Of a stretch of 48,667 nucleotides of DNA, positions 6,985-27,389 are shown in pieces. The stretch is from Candidatus Eisenbacteria bacterium (GTDB lineage Bacteria > Eisenbacteria > RBG-16-71-46 > JASEGR01). Made by a program: the position numbers and the translations under genes. Below the pieces are notes generated by a model. That model searched no databases and was not told the origin of the DNA. It saw only the letters and a list, made by a program, of their open reading frames with translations. Each line of letters opens with the position of its first letter. Within the stretch, counting starts at the first letter, position 1. The stretch is taken from assembly GCA_030017955.1 (NCBI GenBank), contig JASEGR010000011.1, positions 1 to 48,667 on the forward strand, written 5' to 3'.

Positions 6985-7626
6985 GTGATTGGACAAGCGA
7001 TCCAGAAAAACGATCCCGGCACGAGAAAGGAAAACGGCTCTGGTGCTGGAGGGAGAAGTCAAGTTCTCGCCGGACTTGCGATAATTTCCCTCCCAACGAT
7101 AGCTTTCTTTTTCCCATTGATTAAGTTGGTGGGGCGGGTTTTCCAGATTCCGAACGAGAAGCTTGAGAAGTCCTTCATTGAGCTCCATAACAGGATTGAA
7201 AGGCAGCGGATAAGAACTCACCGGCCATCTGAGCTTCTTCTGCTTCTGCCGAGATGCCTTCAAGATCTTGAATGCCCGGAAAGGGTCGTGCTCGACTACA
7301 AAAACTGCAAGGCCTGCGGTAATTGTGAAATAGGCGGCATAGTGAAGATGTGCGAGTCAAAAGGAGTGAGGCTCTCGATTGCAACCGGGGGCGAATTTGC
7401 AAGAAAGCTCGTGATGGAAACTCACCCTCACGCCATTGTCGCAGTTGGATGCGAAAGAGAGCTTGTAAATGGAATCTTGGAGACTGCTTCAACCCCCTCG
7501 TATGCGGTCATAAACGAAAGACCAGAGGGGCCCTGCAGGAACACGAAGGTTGACATGAAGCTGCTCGAAGAAGCCGTATCCCTTTTCTTGGATGAGCAGT
7601 GCGCCGGTTCTCGCCCGGCATCCTAG
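6985..7626 (+). CDS. DUF116 family membrane-anchored cysteine protein
   Basis: This encodes 213 residues from the GTG at 6985, chosen because GAGGG lies at the right distance; an ATG at 6919 inside fmt would add 22 unlikely residues. A membrane segment (about residues 26-48, with SLPTIAFFFPLI) is followed by the DUF116 pattern: LLLLPRCLQDLECPERV, a Cys-rich CKACGNCEIGG stretch, then VAVGCERELVNGI and NERPEGPCRNT. Conserved cysteines suggest metal or Fe-S binding, but the biochemical role of DUF116 is not established. It sits between fmt and rsmB, so it is likely co-transcribed with translation genes. The family call is good; the function is unknown. Confidence 0.85.
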   Translation: MIGQAIQKNDPGTRKENGSGAGGRSQVLAGLAIISLPTIAFFFPLIKLVGRVFQIPNEKLEKSFIELHNRIERQRIRTHRPSELLLLLPRCLQDLECPERVVLDYKNCKACGNCEIGGIVKMCESKGVRLSIATGGEFARKLVMETHPHAIVAVGCERELVNGILETASTPSYAVINERPEGPCRNTKVDMKLLEEAVSLFLDEQCAGSRPAS

Positions 7627-18891: not shown

Positions 18892-20094
18892 ATGAAGAAG
18901 CAGACGCTCGTTTTCAGCAAAGGTACCTGGCTGCCATTGTTGATTTTGTTCCTTGGGACCCTGTGTGCGGCACCTGGTGAAGCGGCAGCGCCTGTTGTCA
19001 CAAACGTCGTCGCTCAACAGATATCGGGCACGGGATTTGTGCGGATCACCTATGATGTGAGTGATGCGGATGGAGACTCGGTCACGGCAAACATTGTCTG
19101 CTCGTCAAATGGCGGTACGACTTTTGACCTGATACCCGTGTCCGTCTCCGGCGATGTCCACCATACAATGCAAGCCGGGGCGGGAAAGCAGATTCTCTGG
19201 AATGCGGCCCTGGACTACCCGGGCAGATACTGGTCCCAGGTCGTTGCCATGGTTTTTGTCAGCGACGGTCCGGCCATCGGCGGCGAGATGGTTTTTGTTC
19301 CGGCGGGCAATTTCACAATGGGGAGCACGAGCGGAAGTTTTGACGAGCAGCCCCAGCACACCGTCTATCTGAACGCCTTTTACATTGACAAGTACGAGGT
19401 GACGAATGCCGATTTCGAAGCCTTCATTAATGCCGGCGGCTATACAGTGGTGGGTTTCTGGAGTCCCGAGGGGTGGAGCGCCAAGGTGTCCGGCGGCTGG
19501 ACGCAGCCGGTATATTGGGGGCAGAGCGCGTATCGCTCGGGTTCCGGGTACCCGGGCTTTCCTGTAATCGGGGTTTCGTGGTACGAGGCTGAGGCATACG
19601 CCAATTTCGTGGGCAAGCGCCTTCCCACTGAAGCTGAATGGGAAAAGGCCGCAAGAGGGACCGACGCGAGGACATATCCCTGGGGAGAAGGGATAGACGG
19701 CACGCGGGCGAATTACTCCGCGAGCGGCGATCCCTACGAAAGCGGTTCAGCCAAGATCACACCGGTTGGTTTCTATGATGGGAGGCTCAATCCCAGTCCT
19801 CCGTTCCAGACAACGAATTCTCCTGGTCCTTATGGCGCCTATGACCAGGCCGGAAATGTGTGGGAGTGGGTGAGGGACTGGTATAGCTCAACATACTACA
19901 GTGTGAGTCCTTCCTCCAATCCATTAGGACCGACGACCGGCTCCTACCGGGTGTTCCGTGGCGGCGGCTGGCTCAATAATACGCCGGACCTTCGCTGCGC
20001 GCGGCGCAACAACTACTACCCTTCGGCCCGGAACCAGCACGTCGGCGGCGGCTACTACGACACCTTCGGGTTTCGTTGCGCAAGGACTCAATGA
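18892..20094 (+). CDS. DGR target: secreted formylglycine-generating-enzyme-like protein
   Basis: This 400-residue protein has a signal peptide (about residues 1-32, ending GEAAA) and a beta-sandwich, fibronectin-like domain (about 34-126). A sulfatase-modifying-factor/FGE-type domain follows from GEMVFVPAGNFTMGS (residue 132) through DKYEVTNADFEAF, GVSWYEAEAYANFVGKRLPTEAEWEKAARG and QAGNVWEWVRDWY to the end. FGE-like domains have a C-type-lectin-related fold and are known DGR targets, where they display variable ligand-binding surfaces rather than act as enzymes. The last 50 residues are the variable repeat, matched to the template at 21125. Export implies a cell-surface or extracellular binding role. 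The ATG at 18892 follows GAGGTGA. avd and reverse-transcriptase genes lie downstream on the same strand. Confidence 0.92.
   Translation: MKKQTLVFSKGTWLPLLILFLGTLCAAPGEAAAPVVTNVVAQQISGTGFVRITYDVSDADGDSVTANIVCSSNGGTTFDLIPVSVSGDVHHTMQAGAGKQILWNAALDYPGRYWSQVVAMVFVSDGPAIGGEMVFVPAGNFTMGSTSGSFDEQPQHTVYLNAFYIDKYEVTNADFEAFINAGGYTVVGFWSPEGWSAKVSGGWTQPVYWGQSAYRSGSGYPGFPVIGVSWYEAEAYANFVGKRLPTEAEWEKAARGTDARTYPWGEGIDGTRANYSASGDPYESGSAKITPVGFYDGRLNPSPPFQTTNSPGPYGAYDQAGNVWEWVRDWYSSTYYSVSPSSNPLGPTTGSYRVFRGGGWLNNTPDLRCARRNNYYPSARNQHVGGGYYDTFGFRCARTQ
19942..20088 (+). repeat. DGR variable repeat (VR)
   Basis: 147 nt encoding residues 351-399 of the target. It aligns codon by codon to the template repeat at 21125-21247 with one 24-nt length difference. 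In my hand alignment 19 of 39 template adenines are substituted, against 9 of 84 other bases. Both repeats keep the blocks CGGGTGTT, CGTGGCGG, CGCTGCGC and CGTTGCGCAA. Variable codons are TAC, CTC, GAC, GCC, CAG, CAC and GTC where the template mostly reads AAC. The repeat ends 3 nt before the stop codon, the usual position. Confidence 0.88.
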
Positions 20095-20190
20095 TACTTG
20101 TTTCTTTAACTCTTTTTCCCTTTTCCGGGGTGGGGTGCGGGGTAGCCTTTTGAGCATTTCGCGCGATTTTGCGAGAGAGGGTTTGACGGT

Positions 20191-20550
20191 ATGTCTGCGC
20201 TGGTGACAGTGGTGCCCAAGGCCTACGACTTGGCCCTGTGGCTTATCCTTCGGGTGAATGAATTTCCTCCCTCGCAGCGTTTCGCGTTGGGTCAACGCAT
20301 GGACAACACAGCGCTGGACCTCCTTGACCTTCTGGTCGAGGCACAATTCGAGCGGGACAAGCAAGACCTATTGAGACGGGCGAATCTCACACTCGTGCGT
20401 CTCCGGCACCTGGTCCGGTTGGCGAACGACCTTCATGTCTTGGGGGCGCGGCGCTATGAGTTTGCGTCAGAACACCTGGAAGAGCTTGGCCGAATGGTAG
20501 GCGGGTGGGCAAAGCACGAAAAGACACGGCCGAGGGATGGCGAGCGGTAG
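20191..20550 (+). CDS. avd: DGR accessory variability determinant Avd
   Basis: A 119-residue, almost entirely helical protein with an amphipathic heptad-like pattern and many Arg residues (AYDLALWLILRVNEFPPSQRF, LLDLLVEAQFERDKQDLL, LTLVRLRHLVRLANDLHVL). This matches the four-helix-bundle Avd/S23-like family, which forms a pentameric barrel, binds the template RNA and associates with the reverse transcriptase. The ATG at 20191 follows GAGAGAGG. It lies 96 nt after the target gene and 12 nt before the reverse transcriptase gene, so the three are likely one transcript. It is full length, unlike its partner. Confidence 0.88.
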   Translation: MSALVTVVPKAYDLALWLILRVNEFPPSQRFALGQRMDNTALDLLDLLVEAQFERDKQDLLRRANLTLVRLRHLVRLANDLHVLGARRYEFASEHLEELGRMVGGWAKHEKTRPRDGER

Positions 20551-20562
20551 GGAAACACTCTG

Positions 20563-21162
20563 GTGAGAACTTACGGCAATCTTTTTGAGCGCATGGTGTC
20601 GTTCGACAATCTTTACGCGGCCTATCGCGCAGCCCGGCGGGGAAAGCGAGGCAGGCCGGATGTAGCCGCTTTCGAGATGGATTGCGAGGGGAACCTGCTG
20701 GCCATGAGGCAGGAACTTCTCACAGGCACTTACCGCTTTGGCCCTTACCGGGACTTCATCGTAAAGGAGCCCAGGGAACGGCTGGTTTCAGCGGCGCCTT
20801 TCCGGGATCGAATCATGCACCACGCGTTGGTCCGTGTGCTTGAGCCAATTTGGGAGCCGCGCTTCATTCACGACTCTTACGCTTGCCGAAAGGGCCGGGG
20901 GACGCATCGCGCGATTCTCAAATGCCAGCAGTTCGTTCGCGACTATCCCTTGGCGCTTAAGATTGACATCTGGAAGTTCTATCCCACCGTGGACCATGCG
21001 ATCCTCCTTGAGATCCTCGGTCGTCGTGTGCGGGACTCGCGTATCTTGTCCATAGCAAAAAATTTGCTCGCTGTGCGGTCTTGTCGCGGCTGGTCTGCCG
21101 CGCAGGGGGGACGGGTTGATTATGTCCAACCGGGTGTTACGTGGCGGTTCCTGGAACAATAA
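20563..21162 (+). pseudogene. DGR reverse transcriptase, truncated before its catalytic half
   Basis: GTG start at 20563. The first about 170 residues match the DGR reverse-transcriptase pattern: TYGNLFERMVSFDNLYAAYR, RLVSAAPFRDRIMHHALVRVLEPIWEPRF, IHDSYACRKGRGTHRAI and motif A, LKIDIWKFYPTVDHAIL, with Asp135. Recognisable similarity stops near KNLLA (about nt 21072). The frame then runs through about 50 nt of unrelated GC-rich sequence into the template repeat and stops at 21162. Motif 4 (the TSQ region), YxDD and the thumb are absent in all frames before the next gene. The 199-residue frame is far short of the usual 300-450, so it cannot be active alone. A deletion joining rt to the region upstream of the template is the simplest reading; an assembly error is the main alternative. 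Confidence 0.85.
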
Positions 21163-21247
21163 TACAACGAACCTCCGCTGCGCTCAGCGCAACAACAACA
21201 ATCCGACGAACCGGAACAACAACAACGGGTTCCGTTGCGCAAAGACA
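21125..21247 (+). repeat. DGR template repeat (TR)
   Basis: 123 nt, rich in AAC/AAT codons: read in the VR frame it would give runs of Asn (GGSWNNNTTN, RNNNNPTNRNNNNG). This is the hallmark of a DGR template whose adenines are copied with error. It pairs with the VR at 19942-20088. It begins about 50 nt after the point where the reverse transcriptase breaks off and 22 nt after a CGCGGC/GCCGCG hairpin (21085-21102). The open frame across it is probably not translated. Confidence 0.88.
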
Positions 21248-21410
21248 TTTATTGCCGGAGCTCGGTCTCTTGAGGGAGACCGGGGCGGGCGTCAAATGTC
21301 CACGACCCGTTCCCGGCCCTTCGTGGCCGAAGAGAGAAGCACGGGTCGCCTTGTGGTAGGCGGTATGCCGAAGCCCGGCGACCCGATATGCCTGCTTGCA
21401 AGAAGGAGGA
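21125..21410 (+). ncRNA. Predicted DGR template RNA with structured 3' spacer
   Basis: Downstream of the TR lie two strong stems: CGGTCTC (21263-21269) with GAGACCG (21276-21282), and CGACCCGT (21303-21310) with ACGGGTCG (21341-21348), which encloses CGGCC (21314-21318) with GGCCG (21325-21329). In the Bordetella phage DGR the RNA just 3' of the TR is needed for Avd/RT binding and self-priming. This block is in the same place and, unlike the RT gene, is not obviously degraded. The ends are approximate and expression is inferred. Confidence 0.5.
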
Positions 21411-21416
21411 ACGACT

Positions 21417-24400
21417 ATGTGCCGTGAGACCTCTCGAATAAGCCACTTGTTCGTCCTTGCTGTTCTCTTGCCGGTGCTGGCTTCGGGAGGCCTCATCACG
21501 AGCGCAGAAACTTCTACGAATGGTCTGATTGGTGAGGGAACAAGCCCCCCGTTCAGCCTTTACCTCGGGCCCGGCTTCGCGGGTCCACCGGCAGTTTTGA
21601 TTGGAGAAGGGACAAGCGCCGCCTTTTCGCTCTGGCTTGGACCGATGAATCAGAGCTGGGGTTTGAGCCCGGCATTTGCTATTGATACACGTTCGACAAT
21701 TCCTGCCAGCTTTAGCGGCGTCGTCCGGGCGGTCGGCTCAGGGAGCGTCGTCCCCGGCGCACTTGTTCAGTTGTTTCTGGGATCCCAGGTGTTGTACACG
21801 ACAACATCCGACGTGGAAGGAAAGTACGAATTCCTGGCCATCCCGTTCGGTGACTATGTGGTACAGGCCTCAAAGTCCGGATACGGCGCGGCAGCTAGCG
21901 ATCTTGTGCATTGGACGGGGCAGTCCTCGGTTCATGCAGACCTGAGTCTTCCGGGGCTGCCCGGCCCTGGGTTACCCGACCTCGCTTTGGGGGCGACCGA
22001 TCTCACCTATACGGTTCTGGAAACAGGGACGCTCACGTTGACGGCAATGGTTCATAACAACGGCGGGACGAGCGCGTCCGGTGTCCGCGTTCGTTTTTAC
22101 GATGCAAGCACAGGGAGTGGAATAAACGAGTACGTGAAAATTGATCCGGATGTAGTGCTGCAATCCGTCGGGCCTGGCGAAGTGAAAGCTGCAAGCGTGA
22201 GCTGGACTCCCTCAAGCGCCTACCAGAAGTTCTACGTCTTTGTAGATCCGTTGAATTCGATCAAGGAATCCTCGGAAATCAACAACTCTGCCTCGCGGGA
22301 ACTTGGCGTTCTCGGGAGAGTAGCGCCCCGAGTGAATGGAGTTACGGCCCAGTACGATGGACTGTCGGACCCCAAATTAATTGGACGGTTCCTCAGTGGA
22401 ATCGAAGGGGCAGAAAATCGGTTCACTGCCACAGTTTCAGACGCCGACAATGATTTGGTCCGCGTCAGATTCGATTTCAACGGGACTGTGTTGGAGGACA
22501 CGAACCCGGCAGATGGTTGGTCGGTGTCCTTTGATGTCGGCACATTGCCGGCAGGGAACCTGGCTTTGACCGTCACGGCTTTCGATGCCTCCGGCCTGCA
22601 ATCCGAACCCTATGTTGTAACACTGGTCGTCGGAGACTGGCCGTGGTGGATGACAGGCCGTCTTCAGCTCGAGAAAGTGCTGCCGGTCGGGTTTGGCCGT
22701 GAGCCCGGGTATCTGACCTTCACGCTCAGACTCAAGAATGAAGAGACCACCGACATAGCGCTCCTGGTCTTTCAGGACCTCATAGATCCTGACGTGCTTA
22801 TTGTCGGCTTGACCAGTATAGAATTTAAAGAGAATATCTACCTGACATTCTACTATCCCGTTGACTCGCGGCTAGCGTGGAAAGTCGAAGGCAAGGTGAA
22901 GATTAAGACAGAGGTCTTTGGCCAAGGGGAACGCGAGTGGGAATTGATATTGACGTGTTCAGTCTCGCCCGATGGCAGCCAACTTGAGAGCATTGCTGTC
23001 GAAGGATCGCTGGAACTGGCAATCCCTGCCTTGCCGGAAGTGTACTCGCCATCGCTTTGCGTTGCTTACGGCGTGGTGTGCTTTGATGTTGGTCTGAGCA
23101 TGGACGTGCTCGTGAAGGCGATGGCCTCGGGTACTCTCCAGGTCAACCTCGGGCAAATTGATGTGAGTCTGGGAGGTCAGGTTGGCGCACGAGTAAACGG
23201 CATCCTCAGGGTGTCCGACCCGATCAAGTTTGGCAGGCTTGAACTTGTCCTCTCGCCACAAGCCCTGTGGGGTCCGGAACTTCGCTATGTGTATCCTCCT
23301 CCCAATTTCAGCGTGAGTGGCCAATATTCATTCCTTATCGGAGGCAGAGTGACCGGTTCAATTATCTGGGGCCGCGCAAGCAAAGACCTTCTCACATGGA
23401 CGTGGGGGCCATGGGAAGGAACATACCCGAAGTTGACCGGGCCGCCCTCCATGCCCCTCGCATTTGCAACGCTCCCCGATTCGGTGTATCTGCCCGCGGT
23501 TTTTCCGTATCCGGCTTCAGCATCCGGGAAACAAGGGCAAGTTGGCGTTGTCTGGATAGCGGATGTGGATGCCGACCCGCTACGAGTTGACCCCGAAGTG
23601 TTCTTCGCTATCAGGGACTCAATTGGCACCTGGCATGATCCCGAGCGGGTGACAACAAACGACCGCTTTGAAAGCGTTCCTGCGGTTTCTTTCTTGTCCG
23701 ACGGTAGAGCAGTCGCAGCGTGGGTGCAGAGCTCTCTTCTTGAACCCGAAGCGAACCAGCCGCTTAGTCTGTCCAACATTCTGGATCGTCAGGACATCTG
23801 GTATGCAGTGCGTGGAGAGTCGGGATGGAGTCAGCCTTCGCCGGTGATTGAGGATACTCAGCCGCCGTACCGTGCGGACGGACTTCCCAGCCTCGCAGGT
23901 CTTGAGTCGGAAGGCGCCATGCTTACATGGGCGCGTTCCGTCGGCGACAGCGCCCTTGCCCCGGGCTCGGGCGAAATTTACTTTTCGAAATTCTCGGGGG
24001 TTGATTGGTCCGCGCCCGCGTCAATCACGAATGACTCGGCAGATGACTTGTCTCCATTCGTCTGCGCTCTGAGAGGAGACTCTGCGCTTGTGGTTTGGGT
24101 GAGAGAAGATCCTCCGGGCTCGGGGAATCAGGAAGTAATGTGGTCCACATGGAACGGGAGCGCATGGAGCGCACATGAGATACTTCGAGATGTGGGCAAC
24201 AAGAGAACTTCGCCTTCTGTGGTGATGGCGCCAGGCGGAGATGTGCTTGCCACATGGGTTGAGGTCGAGACTTTGCCAGATTCCACCCTGCGCTATCACG
24301 TTATGGCCAAAAGGAAACCGAACGGACAGGCTACCTGGGGTGGGGCTGAAGAGGTTGCGCTGGACTCTTTGTTCATTGAAACGCCAGTTCCTCTGGTGGA

Positions 24401-26354
24401 TCAACGCAATATCGCCGCAGTTTTGTGGCGCGGCTACGACGGCTATGACGGCGACCTGAAGGTGGCGCTGAAGGACCTCGATGAACCGGCTTCGGCCTGG
24501 ACGTTACCTCGGTCGGTGACTGCCGACACCCTTACCGACTGGATGGTTACTGCCGCACTGGATCGCCAGAACAACCTGCATGTCATTGACTTGAAGAGCG
24601 ACTTGAAGAATCCGCCGGGCGCGAGTATGCGGAATAACTTCTTCGATGGTTTGAGCATCGCCTCCCGCGGAATATCGAACGATTTGAGTTTAACTGACCA
24701 GCTCAATTTTGGCTATCGGCCGCTTTCGGCGGACCTGCGTCTTGCGGCAGGGTCAGTGTGGCTTGGTGGATTTTACCCTGCAGTAGGTGACACCGCGCAT
24801 GTCAATGCCCGGGTCGAGAACATAGGCGATGTCCGCTCTATGCCAAGCACTGTGCGCTTCTACGACGGACATCCCGATTCGGGAGGCGTTGTGATTGCAG
24901 ATGTGTCGCTCCCGGCAGTCAGCCCCGATTCAACATTCACTGCGACAGCCGCGTGGATTGTGAGTTCAGGGATGCACAAGCTCCACGGAGTGGCAGACCC
25001 GATGGGTAACGTCCCCGAGCAGAATGAGGCCAACAACATCGCTTACGTTAAGGTCAGCGTCTTGCCGGACCTGACTGTCTGCTCCGTAACGGTCTCCAAG
25101 CCCAATCCTTCGCCCGGAGACTCTGTTGATGTTGCGGCAATGGTCGCTAACACCGGCGGCGTAGGGGCCAATGACTTCTCTGTTCGATTTGCCAGGCGAA
25201 CTGGAACTCTGGCTACAGTGTCGAGTCTTTCAGCAGCACCGGCGGAGACCATCACAGTCACGAGTCACCTTATTGCCGAGGCCGGGGTCGATACTCTGAC
25301 GGCAACCGCAGATCCCGACAGTGTTCTGCCCGATCCTGATCGAAGTCGAAATCGGGCGTCCTTTGAATTCCTTGTTCTTCCAGACCTGGTTGTGCCGTCT
25401 GACTCGATCAGCTATGCGGGGTCCGACTCTGTTGGCGTGCTCTCGGCTGTGGTTGAAAACCAGGGAGGTGTCGCAAGTCCGTCCTTCCTCGTGTCCTTCT
25501 ACCGGGGGAATCCAATTGCGGGGGGAACATCCATTGACAGCGTCAGAGTGAGCAGCGTGGCAGCGCGTTCAAGTGTTCGGGTTTCGGTGCCGTGGTTTGC
25601 GCCGCTAGGCCGAAGTACCATTTACCTAATTGCAGACTCCCTCGAAGAGGTGGCGGAACGAAGTGAGGGGAACAACGAATCCTTTGGCGATGTTATCCGT
25701 GGCGCTCTCGCCGACTTGGTCGTGGTGCCCGGCTCCTTCACGGCCTGTTGGGGAGTTGGCGATACTCTGATAATCGAAGCGGCTTTCGCAAACACGGGCA
25801 TGGCCAATGCACTCGGAGTCGGGGTTGAATTTTTCCTAAGTCACCCGGACTCGGGCGGGATGCTTATCGGCGACCGCTTGCTGATTGCGCTGGAATTAGG
25901 CGACACCACCATCGTGTCAATTCCATGGGCGGAGCCTGACTATGTTGGCAATGCGGTCTACGCAATTGTTGACCGGGCGAACGCTATCCCTGAGCTTGAC
26001 GAGGGAAACAATTATTCGCGGGTCGAATGTGCGACTACCGTGGCCGTGCCCGACAAGAAACTCCCGGTTCTGCCGACCGTGCTCGCGCTTCACCAGTCGC
26101 ATCCGAATCCATTCAGCTCTCAAACGACAATACGGTTCGACTTGCCGACCAGCGTCCAGACAAGTCTTATCGTCTACGACGTGATGGGACGCGTCGTGAG
26201 AAAGCTCATCTCGGGTGTCACGCCGGCAGGGTTCCACGCAATCCAGTGGGATGGGGTTGATGAGAGAGGCCACAAGGTTTCTTCCGGCGTCTATGTTTAT
26301 CGGCTTGAGGCACATGGGAAAGCTCTTTCAAGGAAACTTGTAGTCCTGAGGTAA
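21417..26354 (+). CDS. Giant secreted CARDB-domain protein with T9SS-like C-terminal domain
   Basis: 1645 residues from the ATG at 21417, chosen for AGGAGGA 6 nt upstream and the signal peptide that follows (about residues 1-32). Two copies of LIGEGTS-FSL-LGP lie near residues 37-75. A carboxypeptidase-regulatory-like domain (FSGVVRAVG to VVQASKSGYG) is followed by a CARDB domain (nt 21976-22310) and a long beta-rich middle. A region with beta-propeller-like repeats (SDGRAVAAWVQSS, GDSALVVWVRED, GGDVLATWVEVE) comes next, then four more CARDB domains (nt 24730-26035). The end is the PNPF-type sorting domain: HPNPF from residue 1562, VYDVMGRVVRKL, SSGVYVYRLEA. Probably exported to the cell surface as an adhesin or structural protein. 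It starts only about 170 nt after the DGR template. Confidence 0.88.
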   Translation: MCRETSRISHLFVLAVLLPVLASGGLITSAETSTNGLIGEGTSPPFSLYLGPGFAGPPAVLIGEGTSAAFSLWLGPMNQSWGLSPAFAIDTRSTIPASFSGVVRAVGSGSVVPGALVQLFLGSQVLYTTTSDVEGKYEFLAIPFGDYVVQASKSGYGAAASDLVHWTGQSSVHADLSLPGLPGPGLPDLALGATDLTYTVLETGTLTLTAMVHNNGGTSASGVRVRFYDASTGSGINEYVKIDPDVVLQSVGPGEVKAASVSWTPSSAYQKFYVFVDPLNSIKESSEINNSASRELGVLGRVAPRVNGVTAQYDGLSDPKLIGRFLSGIEGAENRFTATVSDADNDLVRVRFDFNGTVLEDTNPADGWSVSFDVGTLPAGNLALTVTAFDASGLQSEPYVVTLVVGDWPWWMTGRLQLEKVLPVGFGREPGYLTFTLRLKNEETTDIALLVFQDLIDPDVLIVGLTSIEFKENIYLTFYYPVDSRLAWKVEGKVKIKTEVFGQGEREWELILTCSVSPDGSQLESIAVEGSLELAIPALPEVYSPSLCVAYGVVCFDVGLSMDVLVKAMASGTLQVNLGQIDVSLGGQVGARVNGILRVSDPIKFGRLELVLSPQALWGPELRYVYPPPNFSVSGQYSFLIGGRVTGSIIWGRASKDLLTWTWGPWEGTYPKLTGPPSMPLAFATLPDSVYLPAVFPYPASASGKQGQVGVVWIADVDADPLRVDPEVFFAIRDSIGTWHDPERVTTNDRFESVPAVSFLSDGRAVAAWVQSSLLEPEANQPLSLSNILDRQDIWYAVRGESGWSQPSPVIEDTQPPYRADGLPSLAGLESEGAMLTWARSVGDSALAPGSGEIYFSKFSGVDWSAPASITNDSADDLSPFVCALRGDSALVVWVREDPPGSGNQEVMWSTWNGSAWSAHEILRDVGNKRTSPSVVMAPGGDVLATWVEVETLPDSTLRYHVMAKRKPNGQATWGGAEEVALDSLFIETPVPLVDQRNIAAVLWRGYDGYDGDLKVALKDLDEPASAWTLPRSVTADTLTDWMVTAALDRQNNLHVIDLKSDLKNPPGASMRNNFFDGLSIASRGISNDLSLTDQLNFGYRPLSADLRLAAGSVWLGGFYPAVGDTAHVNARVENIGDVRSMPSTVRFYDGHPDSGGVVIADVSLPAVSPDSTFTATAAWIVSSGMHKLHGVADPMGNVPEQNEANNIAYVKVSVLPDLTVCSVTVSKPNPSPGDSVDVAAMVANTGGVGANDFSVRFARRTGTLATVSSLSAAPAETITVTSHLIAEAGVDTLTATADPDSVLPDPDRSRNRASFEFLVLPDLVVPSDSISYAGSDSVGVLSAVVENQGGVASPSFLVSFYRGNPIAGGTSIDSVRVSSVAARSSVRVSVPWFAPLGRSTIYLIADSLEEVAERSEGNNESFGDVIRGALADLVVVPGSFTACWGVGDTLIIEAAFANTGMANALGVGVEFFLSHPDSGGMLIGDRLLIALELGDTTIVSIPWAEPDYVGNAVYAIVDRANAIPELDEGNNYSRVECATTVAVPDKKLPVLPTVLALHQSHPNPFSSQTTIRFDLPTSVQTSLIVYDVMGRVVRKLISGVTPAGFHAIQWDGVDERGHKVSSGVYVYRLEAHGKALSRKLVVLR

Positions 26355-26380: not shown

Positions 26381-26824
26381 TTAGCTTGATTGGCGAGGTT
26401 TTACCCCGATATGTTCTTCGATTCTTTTGATCAGCTCTGCGGCTTCATCTATGCTTTTCAGAACCTCAGTTTCTGACTCAACGAAGCTGGCTTCGTACTG
26501 AAGCGGGTGGCGCTTTCTTCTCATCCTCTTGAATCTGCCTACAAGTGCACCATATTCCTTGCCCAAAATCCGGTCGGTGCATTCAGTTATCGTGGCGTGG
26601 GTGAATCTGTCAGTTGGACGATATCCATAGTGTCTGATAAGTGCATTTCCTGCGTGGATTAAGGCATCGTAGGCAGACTTGTAGGCGACAGCCCTGTATT
26701 TCGGGAAGAGATATCGGGCCGCTTCCACTTCAGTCTTGGCGAATTGAAGGAATTCGGCAATTTTGTCTTTGCCGGTTTCGTCTTTTCTAAGTCGTCCGGA
26801 ATCCGCCAGATCATCGAAGGTCAT
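26381..26824 (-). CDS. HEPN domain protein, probable toxin of an MNT-HEPN pair
   Basis: 147 residues, all helical: DKIAEFLQFAKTEVEAARYLF, YKSAYDALIHAGNALIRHYGYRP, then the R-x5-H element R100-MRRKR-H106 with Tyr110 close behind. R-x4-6-H is the ribonuclease signature of HEPN toxins. Its start overlaps the end of the upstream nucleotidyltransferase gene by 14 nt, so the two are translated together. In type VII HepT/MntA systems the nucleotidyltransferase inactivates the HEPN toxin by adding AMP to a nearby Tyr. The same role is inferred here, not shown. It is convergent with the giant protein gene, with only 26 nt between them. Confidence 0.85.
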   Translation of the reverse strand: MTFDDLADSGRLRKDETGKDKIAEFLQFAKTEVEAARYLFPKYRAVAYKSAYDALIHAGNALIRHYGYRPTDRFTHATITECTDRILGKEYGALVGRFKRMRRKRHPLQYEASFVESETEVLKSIDEAAELIKRIEEHIGVKPRQSS

Positions 26825-27389
26825 CTTCTGAACCTTCGAGCATGATCTTGGGCTTGGTCAACACTTTCCGGATAAAGGAATCATTTTTCCGCTTGCGCTT
26901 CTTGTATTCCATTTTCGAGTAGATAGTGTAGTTAATCTCACGCCTGAGATCTCTTTCCAGCTTGTCTATCCCGGCCATGAGATATTCCTCATTTGGTTCG
27001 CCAATGATTAGAAGATCAATGTCACTTTTTCCGGTTTCCTCACCGGCAGCGAATGACCCGTAAATCATAGCCACTTCGACTCCCTCAGTGGCATTGACTA
27101 TCTTCTTCAGACTACCTTCTACTCCAATGGTCTTGAAGACTATGCTTTTCAGTTCATTGCAAAGGGGATAATCCTTGTTCAGGCTGTAGAAAACCAAGTT
27201 GCCGACCGCTCTTGTCTTGAAGAGTCCAGTTTCTTTGAGCTTCAGAAGATCACGGCGGATATTGGCGGCCGAGAAACCAAGAAGTCGTTCAAGCTGTCGC
27301 AAATAGTACTCCTCGTCGACATTGGTAAAGTAAAGCCGCAAGAGGTCGCGCCGTACCTTTGACCTGGTTATTTCGAGCAGTGTTTGCAT
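26811..27389 (-). CDS. Winged-helix/minimal nucleotidyltransferase fusion, probable antitoxin
   Basis: 192 residues. The N-terminal part (about 1-75) looks like a winged helix-turn-helix: YYLRQLERLLGFSAANIRRDLLKLKETGLFKTRAVGNLVFYSLN. The C-terminal part is a minimal nucleotidyltransferase with YGSFAAGEETGKSDIDLLIIG, giving Gly111-Ser112 and the metal ligands Asp123 and Asp125. A basic tail (KKRKRKND) follows. It overlaps the HEPN gene. The fused DNA-binding domain and the operator-like inverted repeats 5-45 nt upstream suggest autorepression. The enzymatic role, probably AMPylation of the HEPN partner, is inferred from type VII systems. Confidence 0.87.
   Translation of the reverse strand: MQTLLEITRSKVRRDLLRLYFTNVDEEYYLRQLERLLGFSAANIRRDLLKLKETGLFKTRAVGNLVFYSLNKDYPLCNELKSIVFKTIGVEGSLKKIVNATEGVEVAMIYGSFAAGEETGKSDIDLLIIGEPNEEYLMAGIDKLERDLRREINYTIYSKMEYKKRKRKNDSFIRKVLTKPKIMLEGSEDDLR

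Follow-up and report, generated by a model that had tools for sequence, protein, structure and literature searches.

Does the block of genes and repeats beginning at position 18892 of the window (the whole 48,667-nt stretch analysed here) form a diversity-generating retroelement (DGR), and can that element still vary its target? A sequence-only reading of this DNA had proposed a DGR aimed at a secreted protein resembling formylglycine-generating enzymes (FGE), which the cell once varied. Anatomy, an adenine bias between repeats, family matches of the accessory protein (Avd) and the reverse transcriptase (RT), and synteny with an intact relative agree with that proposal and support its assignment to the DGRs. 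The locus is very probably a chromosomal DGR that lost its RT and has now decayed. Its parts, including the template repeat (TR) and two variable repeats (VR1 and VR2), are as follows.

18892-20094, + strand: target (variable protein), 400 aa, with an FGE-sulfatase (C-type-lectin-type) domain (PF03781, E 4.6e-59) and VR1 at its C-terminus
19942-20088, + strand: VR1, variable repeat
20032-20067, + strand: 12-codon stretch of VR1 holding a 24-nt gain
20191-20550, + strand: avd, accessory variability determinant, 119 aa, intact (NF033474 DivGenRetAVD, 98.9 bits, cutoff 80)
20563-21068, + strand: RT 5' remnant, which retains fingers and motif A but not motif B, YMDD or thumb (phrog_1423, 3e-67; PDB 8ub7, 2.9e-30)
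21041-21069, + strand: deletion junction, frameshifting, from DNA alignments
21069-21120, + strand: RT 3' remnant, out of frame, closed by TGA 21118-21120 immediately ahead of the TR
21125-21247, + strand: TR, template repeat, AAC-rich, identified by repeat search, A bias and a position as in the intact relative
21247-21390, + strand: structured TR 3' flank with helices 21254-21290, 21261-21284 and 21342-21385 (72% DNA identity to the relative over 21069-21385)
21396-26354, + strand: large secreted CARDB-repeat protein with a C-terminal sorting/FlgD-Ig-like domain, from profile matches (41% identity over 1570 aa to its counterpart beside the relative's DGR)
C61:8648-8764 (L037:2649-2765), - strand: VR2, at the end of a CsgG-FGE gene on another contig of the genome

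The match between TR and VR1 was recovered where it had been reported by an unprompted repeat search, which paired 19942-20045 with 21125-21228 (76% identity) and 20057-20087 with 21216-21246 (81%). With the 24-nt gap placed, mismatches fall on 19 of the 39 template adenines and on 8 of the 84 other bases (Fisher one-sided p = 3e-6); the earlier adenine count thus stands, and its 9/84 for the other bases becomes 8/84. The concentration of substitutions at template adenines runs in one direction only, since the bias is absent when VR1 bases serve as the reference (0/20 A and 27/103 other bases changed, p = 1). A purpose-written finder of A-biased repeats reported TR/VR1 as the sole pair in the whole 48.7-kb window, recovered clear TR/VR pairs from contigs of seven relatives that carry DGRs, and gave zero pairs on nine loci with non-DGR RTs. 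VR1 reaches the end of the target gene, and within it 16 of the 19 A changes lie at the first two codon positions and six of the eight non-A changes at the third; this third-position bias, on so few as eight changes, suggests that purifying selection still acts on the target protein. That the two repeats are merely the ends of two ordinary FGE paralogues has a negligible probability. The TR does match, in one frame, the final 43 positions of the FGE profile, but the reading is already contradicted by the one-directional bias and by the surroundings of the TR, where the FGE body is missing and the RT remnant directly precedes the repeat, with Avd adjacent, in the same layout as in the intact relative.

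The genes beside the repeats are likewise those of a DGR. The N-terminus of the target, MKKQTLVFSKGTWLPLLILFLGTLCAA, reads by eye as a signal-like peptide. Formylglycine-generating enzymes are among the sequence relatives of the protein, as is the Treponema DGR variable protein 2y3c. What had been called an Avd-like protein lies above the NCBIfam equivalog cutoff of NF033474 and also matches PF22296 bAvd (65.4 bits, cutoff 40) and phrog_3206; zero matches were obtained for it among PDB sequences. The DGR-type RT between the repeats is a fragment only: its ORF as read spans 20563-21162, of which ~168 residues are genuine, a possibility for which the earlier phrases "reverse transcriptase start" and "once varied" left room.

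The extent of the damage is given by the closest relative found, Candidatus Eisenbacteria bacterium AlinenSediments_bin-1799 (CAIXRL010000084.1; G046:C84), whose DGR has the same order of target, avd, RT, TR, structured flank and secreted CARDB protein. Identities to the window are 68% for the target, 64% for Avd, 64% for the RT (remnant against residues 1-168) and 72% at the DNA level for the TR with its 3' flank, and DNA similarity is confined to the module. Unlike the window, bin-1799 has an intact RT with YMDD and a TR and VR of equal length, and its TR/VR mismatches fall on 19/31 A and 1/91 other bases (p = 3e-13). The 535 nt between L027:7391 and 6855 of the relative align to only 27 nt at 21041-21069, a net loss of ~508 nt that includes motif B, YMDD and the thumb, and the full YxDD-bearing RT expected of a functional DGR is therefore missing. 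When the lost part was sought in the genome's own assembly, the only match was a CRISPR RT (E 0.09) and no replacement copy was found. With the catalytic half of its RT gone, the device appears dead, its last product frozen; the past tense of the sequence-only reading was right, as the element is almost certainly inactive.

Searching the genome with the TR for further VRs, as had been suggested, gave a mixed outcome, in that BLASTN returned the TR itself only, whereas a protein search together with a 3'-end motif brought up VR2. In VR2, 22/36 template A and 12/81 other bases are changed (p = 9e-7), the bias is absent in the reverse-direction test, and the length equals that of the TR. Its host gene is frameshifted just before the repeat; the break adjoins a run of five G, so that it is either genuine or a sequencing error. 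An MNT-type nucleotidyltransferase gene follows it. The motif occurs at four sites in the genome, namely TR, VR1, VR2 and C24:12261, the last of which was rejected as a fourth repeat, being a chance occurrence in an open frame unrelated to FGE. Four non-A differences are common to VR1 and VR2 (at 21148, 21202, 21205 and 21232); they may be mutations of the TR, but the relative's TR equals that of the window at three of the four, and position 21232 is close to the 3' end, a region in which TR and VR can legitimately diverge.

Non-A mismatch between TR and VR in the window is three to five times that of intact relatives, and the near-identity expected of a functional DGR is missing. In the seven cis pairs from intact DGRs, TR and VR differ at 14/677 non-A positions, or 22/774 when a second VR of one relative (G011) is included, and compared with the latter figure both VR1 (8/84, p = 6e-3) and VR2 (12/81, p = 2e-5) are in excess, although the score used to delimit the relatives' segments penalises non-A mismatch and so favours them somewhat, the same finder giving 8/70 for the window. 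Because the second VR of the live G011 element itself carries 8/97 non-A differences, drift alone does not prove inactivity. The intact G011 DGR serves two targets from one TR (L029:2585-2715 and 7440-7568). One is a large FGE protein with zinc-ribbon/TPR-like parts, the other a serine/threonine kinase-FGE protein, and the arrangement recalls DGR-linked conflict or signalling systems.

Could the DGR nevertheless be active in the population, with the RT deletion an assembly artefact or a minority variant? Avd, TR, TR 3' flank and target are intact, and the deletion comes from a single draft assembly (248 contigs, 97% complete) in which, judged from contigs rather than reads, it may represent a collapsed or minority haplotype. 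However, the several-fold excess of non-A mismatch in both VRs, the frameshift in the VR2 host gene and the 24-nt difference between VR1 and TR indicate disuse independently of the RT, and we consider an active element improbable. Nor do we give much credence to a minimal Avd-TR-target cassette driven in trans by another RT. The Avd and TR RNA parts have been kept, the assembly's missing few percent could harbour such an enzyme, and the genome does encode one other RT, on contig C99; yet the latter is only 30% identical over part of the domain and appears, from its ORF and neighbours, to be a CRISPR-type RT-Cas1 protein, a DGR-type RT was not found elsewhere in the assembly, and the non-A drift argues against ongoing homing. 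The C99 protein (L030:1778-4483) is large, with Cas6/RT/Cas1-like features, and lies beside a CRISPR-array-like repetitive ORF and type III CRISPR-like genes. Among viral contigs, a relative of the window RT was not found by the patterns used.

A decayed chromosomal DGR would, by its membership in this class, have worked as follows. During the active phase, RT-Avd would have copied a transcript over the TR and its structured 3' flank, making errors at template adenines, and the resulting cDNA would have replaced the C-terminal repeat of the secreted FGE-fold protein and that of the second, CsgG-FGE protein elsewhere. The ~508-bp deletion would then have removed the RT catalytic core, after which the TR and both VRs would have drifted apart and the remote target become frameshifted, the local target protein being kept as a frozen variant. 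The avd and target frames are open, so that either the decay is recent or these genes serve otherwise. The frozen target may still be in use, and would have bound a ligand, perhaps in attachment or partner recognition as had been proposed.

The TR 3' flank is conserved at the DNA level to a degree similar to the coding parts. In a common fold with the relative, 36/36 pairs form in both sequences and 8 pairs are changed on both sides, compared with 33-47% of cells paired in slid-partner controls, the fold being derived from the same two sequences. In the phage DGR BPP-1, a structured spacer 3' of the TR recruits RT-Avd and primes cDNA synthesis (PMC12875486), and from the matching position we infer a role in the RNA: the flank, whose structure is suggestive on two sequences, may be the part of the DGR RNA that recruits the RT and primes cDNA. 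At a similar place, G011 has a 10-bp hairpin with a GAAA loop. Rfam at the gathering threshold gave zero matches for the window and three relative loci.

VR1 is longer than the TR by 24 nt, gained within its AAC-rich part; VR2 and the relative share the length of the TR, which marks VR1 as the exception. Flanked by CGG and GGG, its 12 codons AAC CAG CAC GTC GGC GGC GGC TAC TAC GAC ACC TTC end in C in 11 cases (p = 1e-4, with the frequency of C at third positions of the same gene as reference; 7/8, p = 0.004, for the extra codons alone), and the gain reads as an array of mutagenised AAC codons. Slippage on AAC runs by multiples of three has been proposed earlier (Wu et al. 2018, as cited in PMC12875486), which makes VR1 a further instance of a mechanism that is not new. 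We tentatively suggest that the insertion arose from RT slippage on an AAC run, or from copying of an expanded one, so that the family diversified in length too, and that RT loss froze a useful, still-selected long variant, an account we find possible, though short of probable. If true, the locus would be a natural example of a DGR switched off after use.

Upstream of the DGR lie rplS, rnhB, a UPF0102 gene, thi4 and a DUF6775 gene, neighbours that place the element among chromosomal genes; no signs of a prophage were seen in this upstream neighbourhood. The CARDB-repeat protein is found behind the DGR in both Eisenbacteria relatives and in only 3/47 genomes of the class, and is a possible DGR partner. 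Close behind the module, the window also contains a HEPN/MNT-like gene pair (26381-27389, - strand), and a similar pair, with an MNT of 36% identity, directly follows the DGR of the relative G021 (L028:3441-4452). A link between DGRs and HEPN/MNT pairs was considered, and the cases are too few.

Like BPP-1 (Mtd, Avd, bRT), the window combines Avd, an RT of the same family, adenine TR/VR mutagenesis and a putative structured RNA 3' of the TR; in BPP-1 the TR lies between avd and the RT, whereas here it follows a broken RT. The VR of BPP-1 is followed by a GC-rich hairpin/cruciform (PMC3240598), unlike VR1 and VR2, behind which no hairpin or cruciform of at least 5 bp was found within ~70 nt. 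No hairpin of at least 5 bp was found behind the VR of intact bin-1799 either, and one is present in G011 (CGGACC-GTAA-GGTCCG) and in G021. Such a structure is a feature of phage DGRs that is not required of all DGRs. The Treponema denticola protein 2y3c, whose fold we take to be as described in the literature, resembles the window target in its FGE/C-type-lectin-type domain and C-terminal VR, but the sequence similarity is distant and the N-terminal part differs. Finally, degraded DGRs have been reported in cyanobacteria, with the RT only in Anabaena sp. 90 and a remnant TR-VR homology at all3226 of PCC 7120 (PMC7517822), where incomplete parts and remote targets are likewise left in the chromosome; unlike these remnants, the window retains target, Avd, TR, RT remnant and remote VR, and an intact relative sizes the damage.

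The element is a well-documented fossil of an ordinary, known class. The remote VR2, the 24-nt VR1 insertion and its likely cause, and a TR 3' flank with compensatory changes are new here and, like the size of the RT deletion, were beyond the reach of the sequence-only reading. What is unusual is its completeness: the lost RT, the remote target and the length-variant VR can be studied side by side with an intact sister element, so that the damage can be measured and the drift since the last homing counted. DGR searches mostly start from the RT, and we infer that RT-less elements are easily missed and that little is known of how fast DGRs die and leave fixed products behind. The finding places DGRs in this Eisenbacteria class, in 4 of the 47 genomes searched, one of them broken, and its covarying TR 3' flank offers a testable candidate for the DGR RNA of the TR-after-RT layout.
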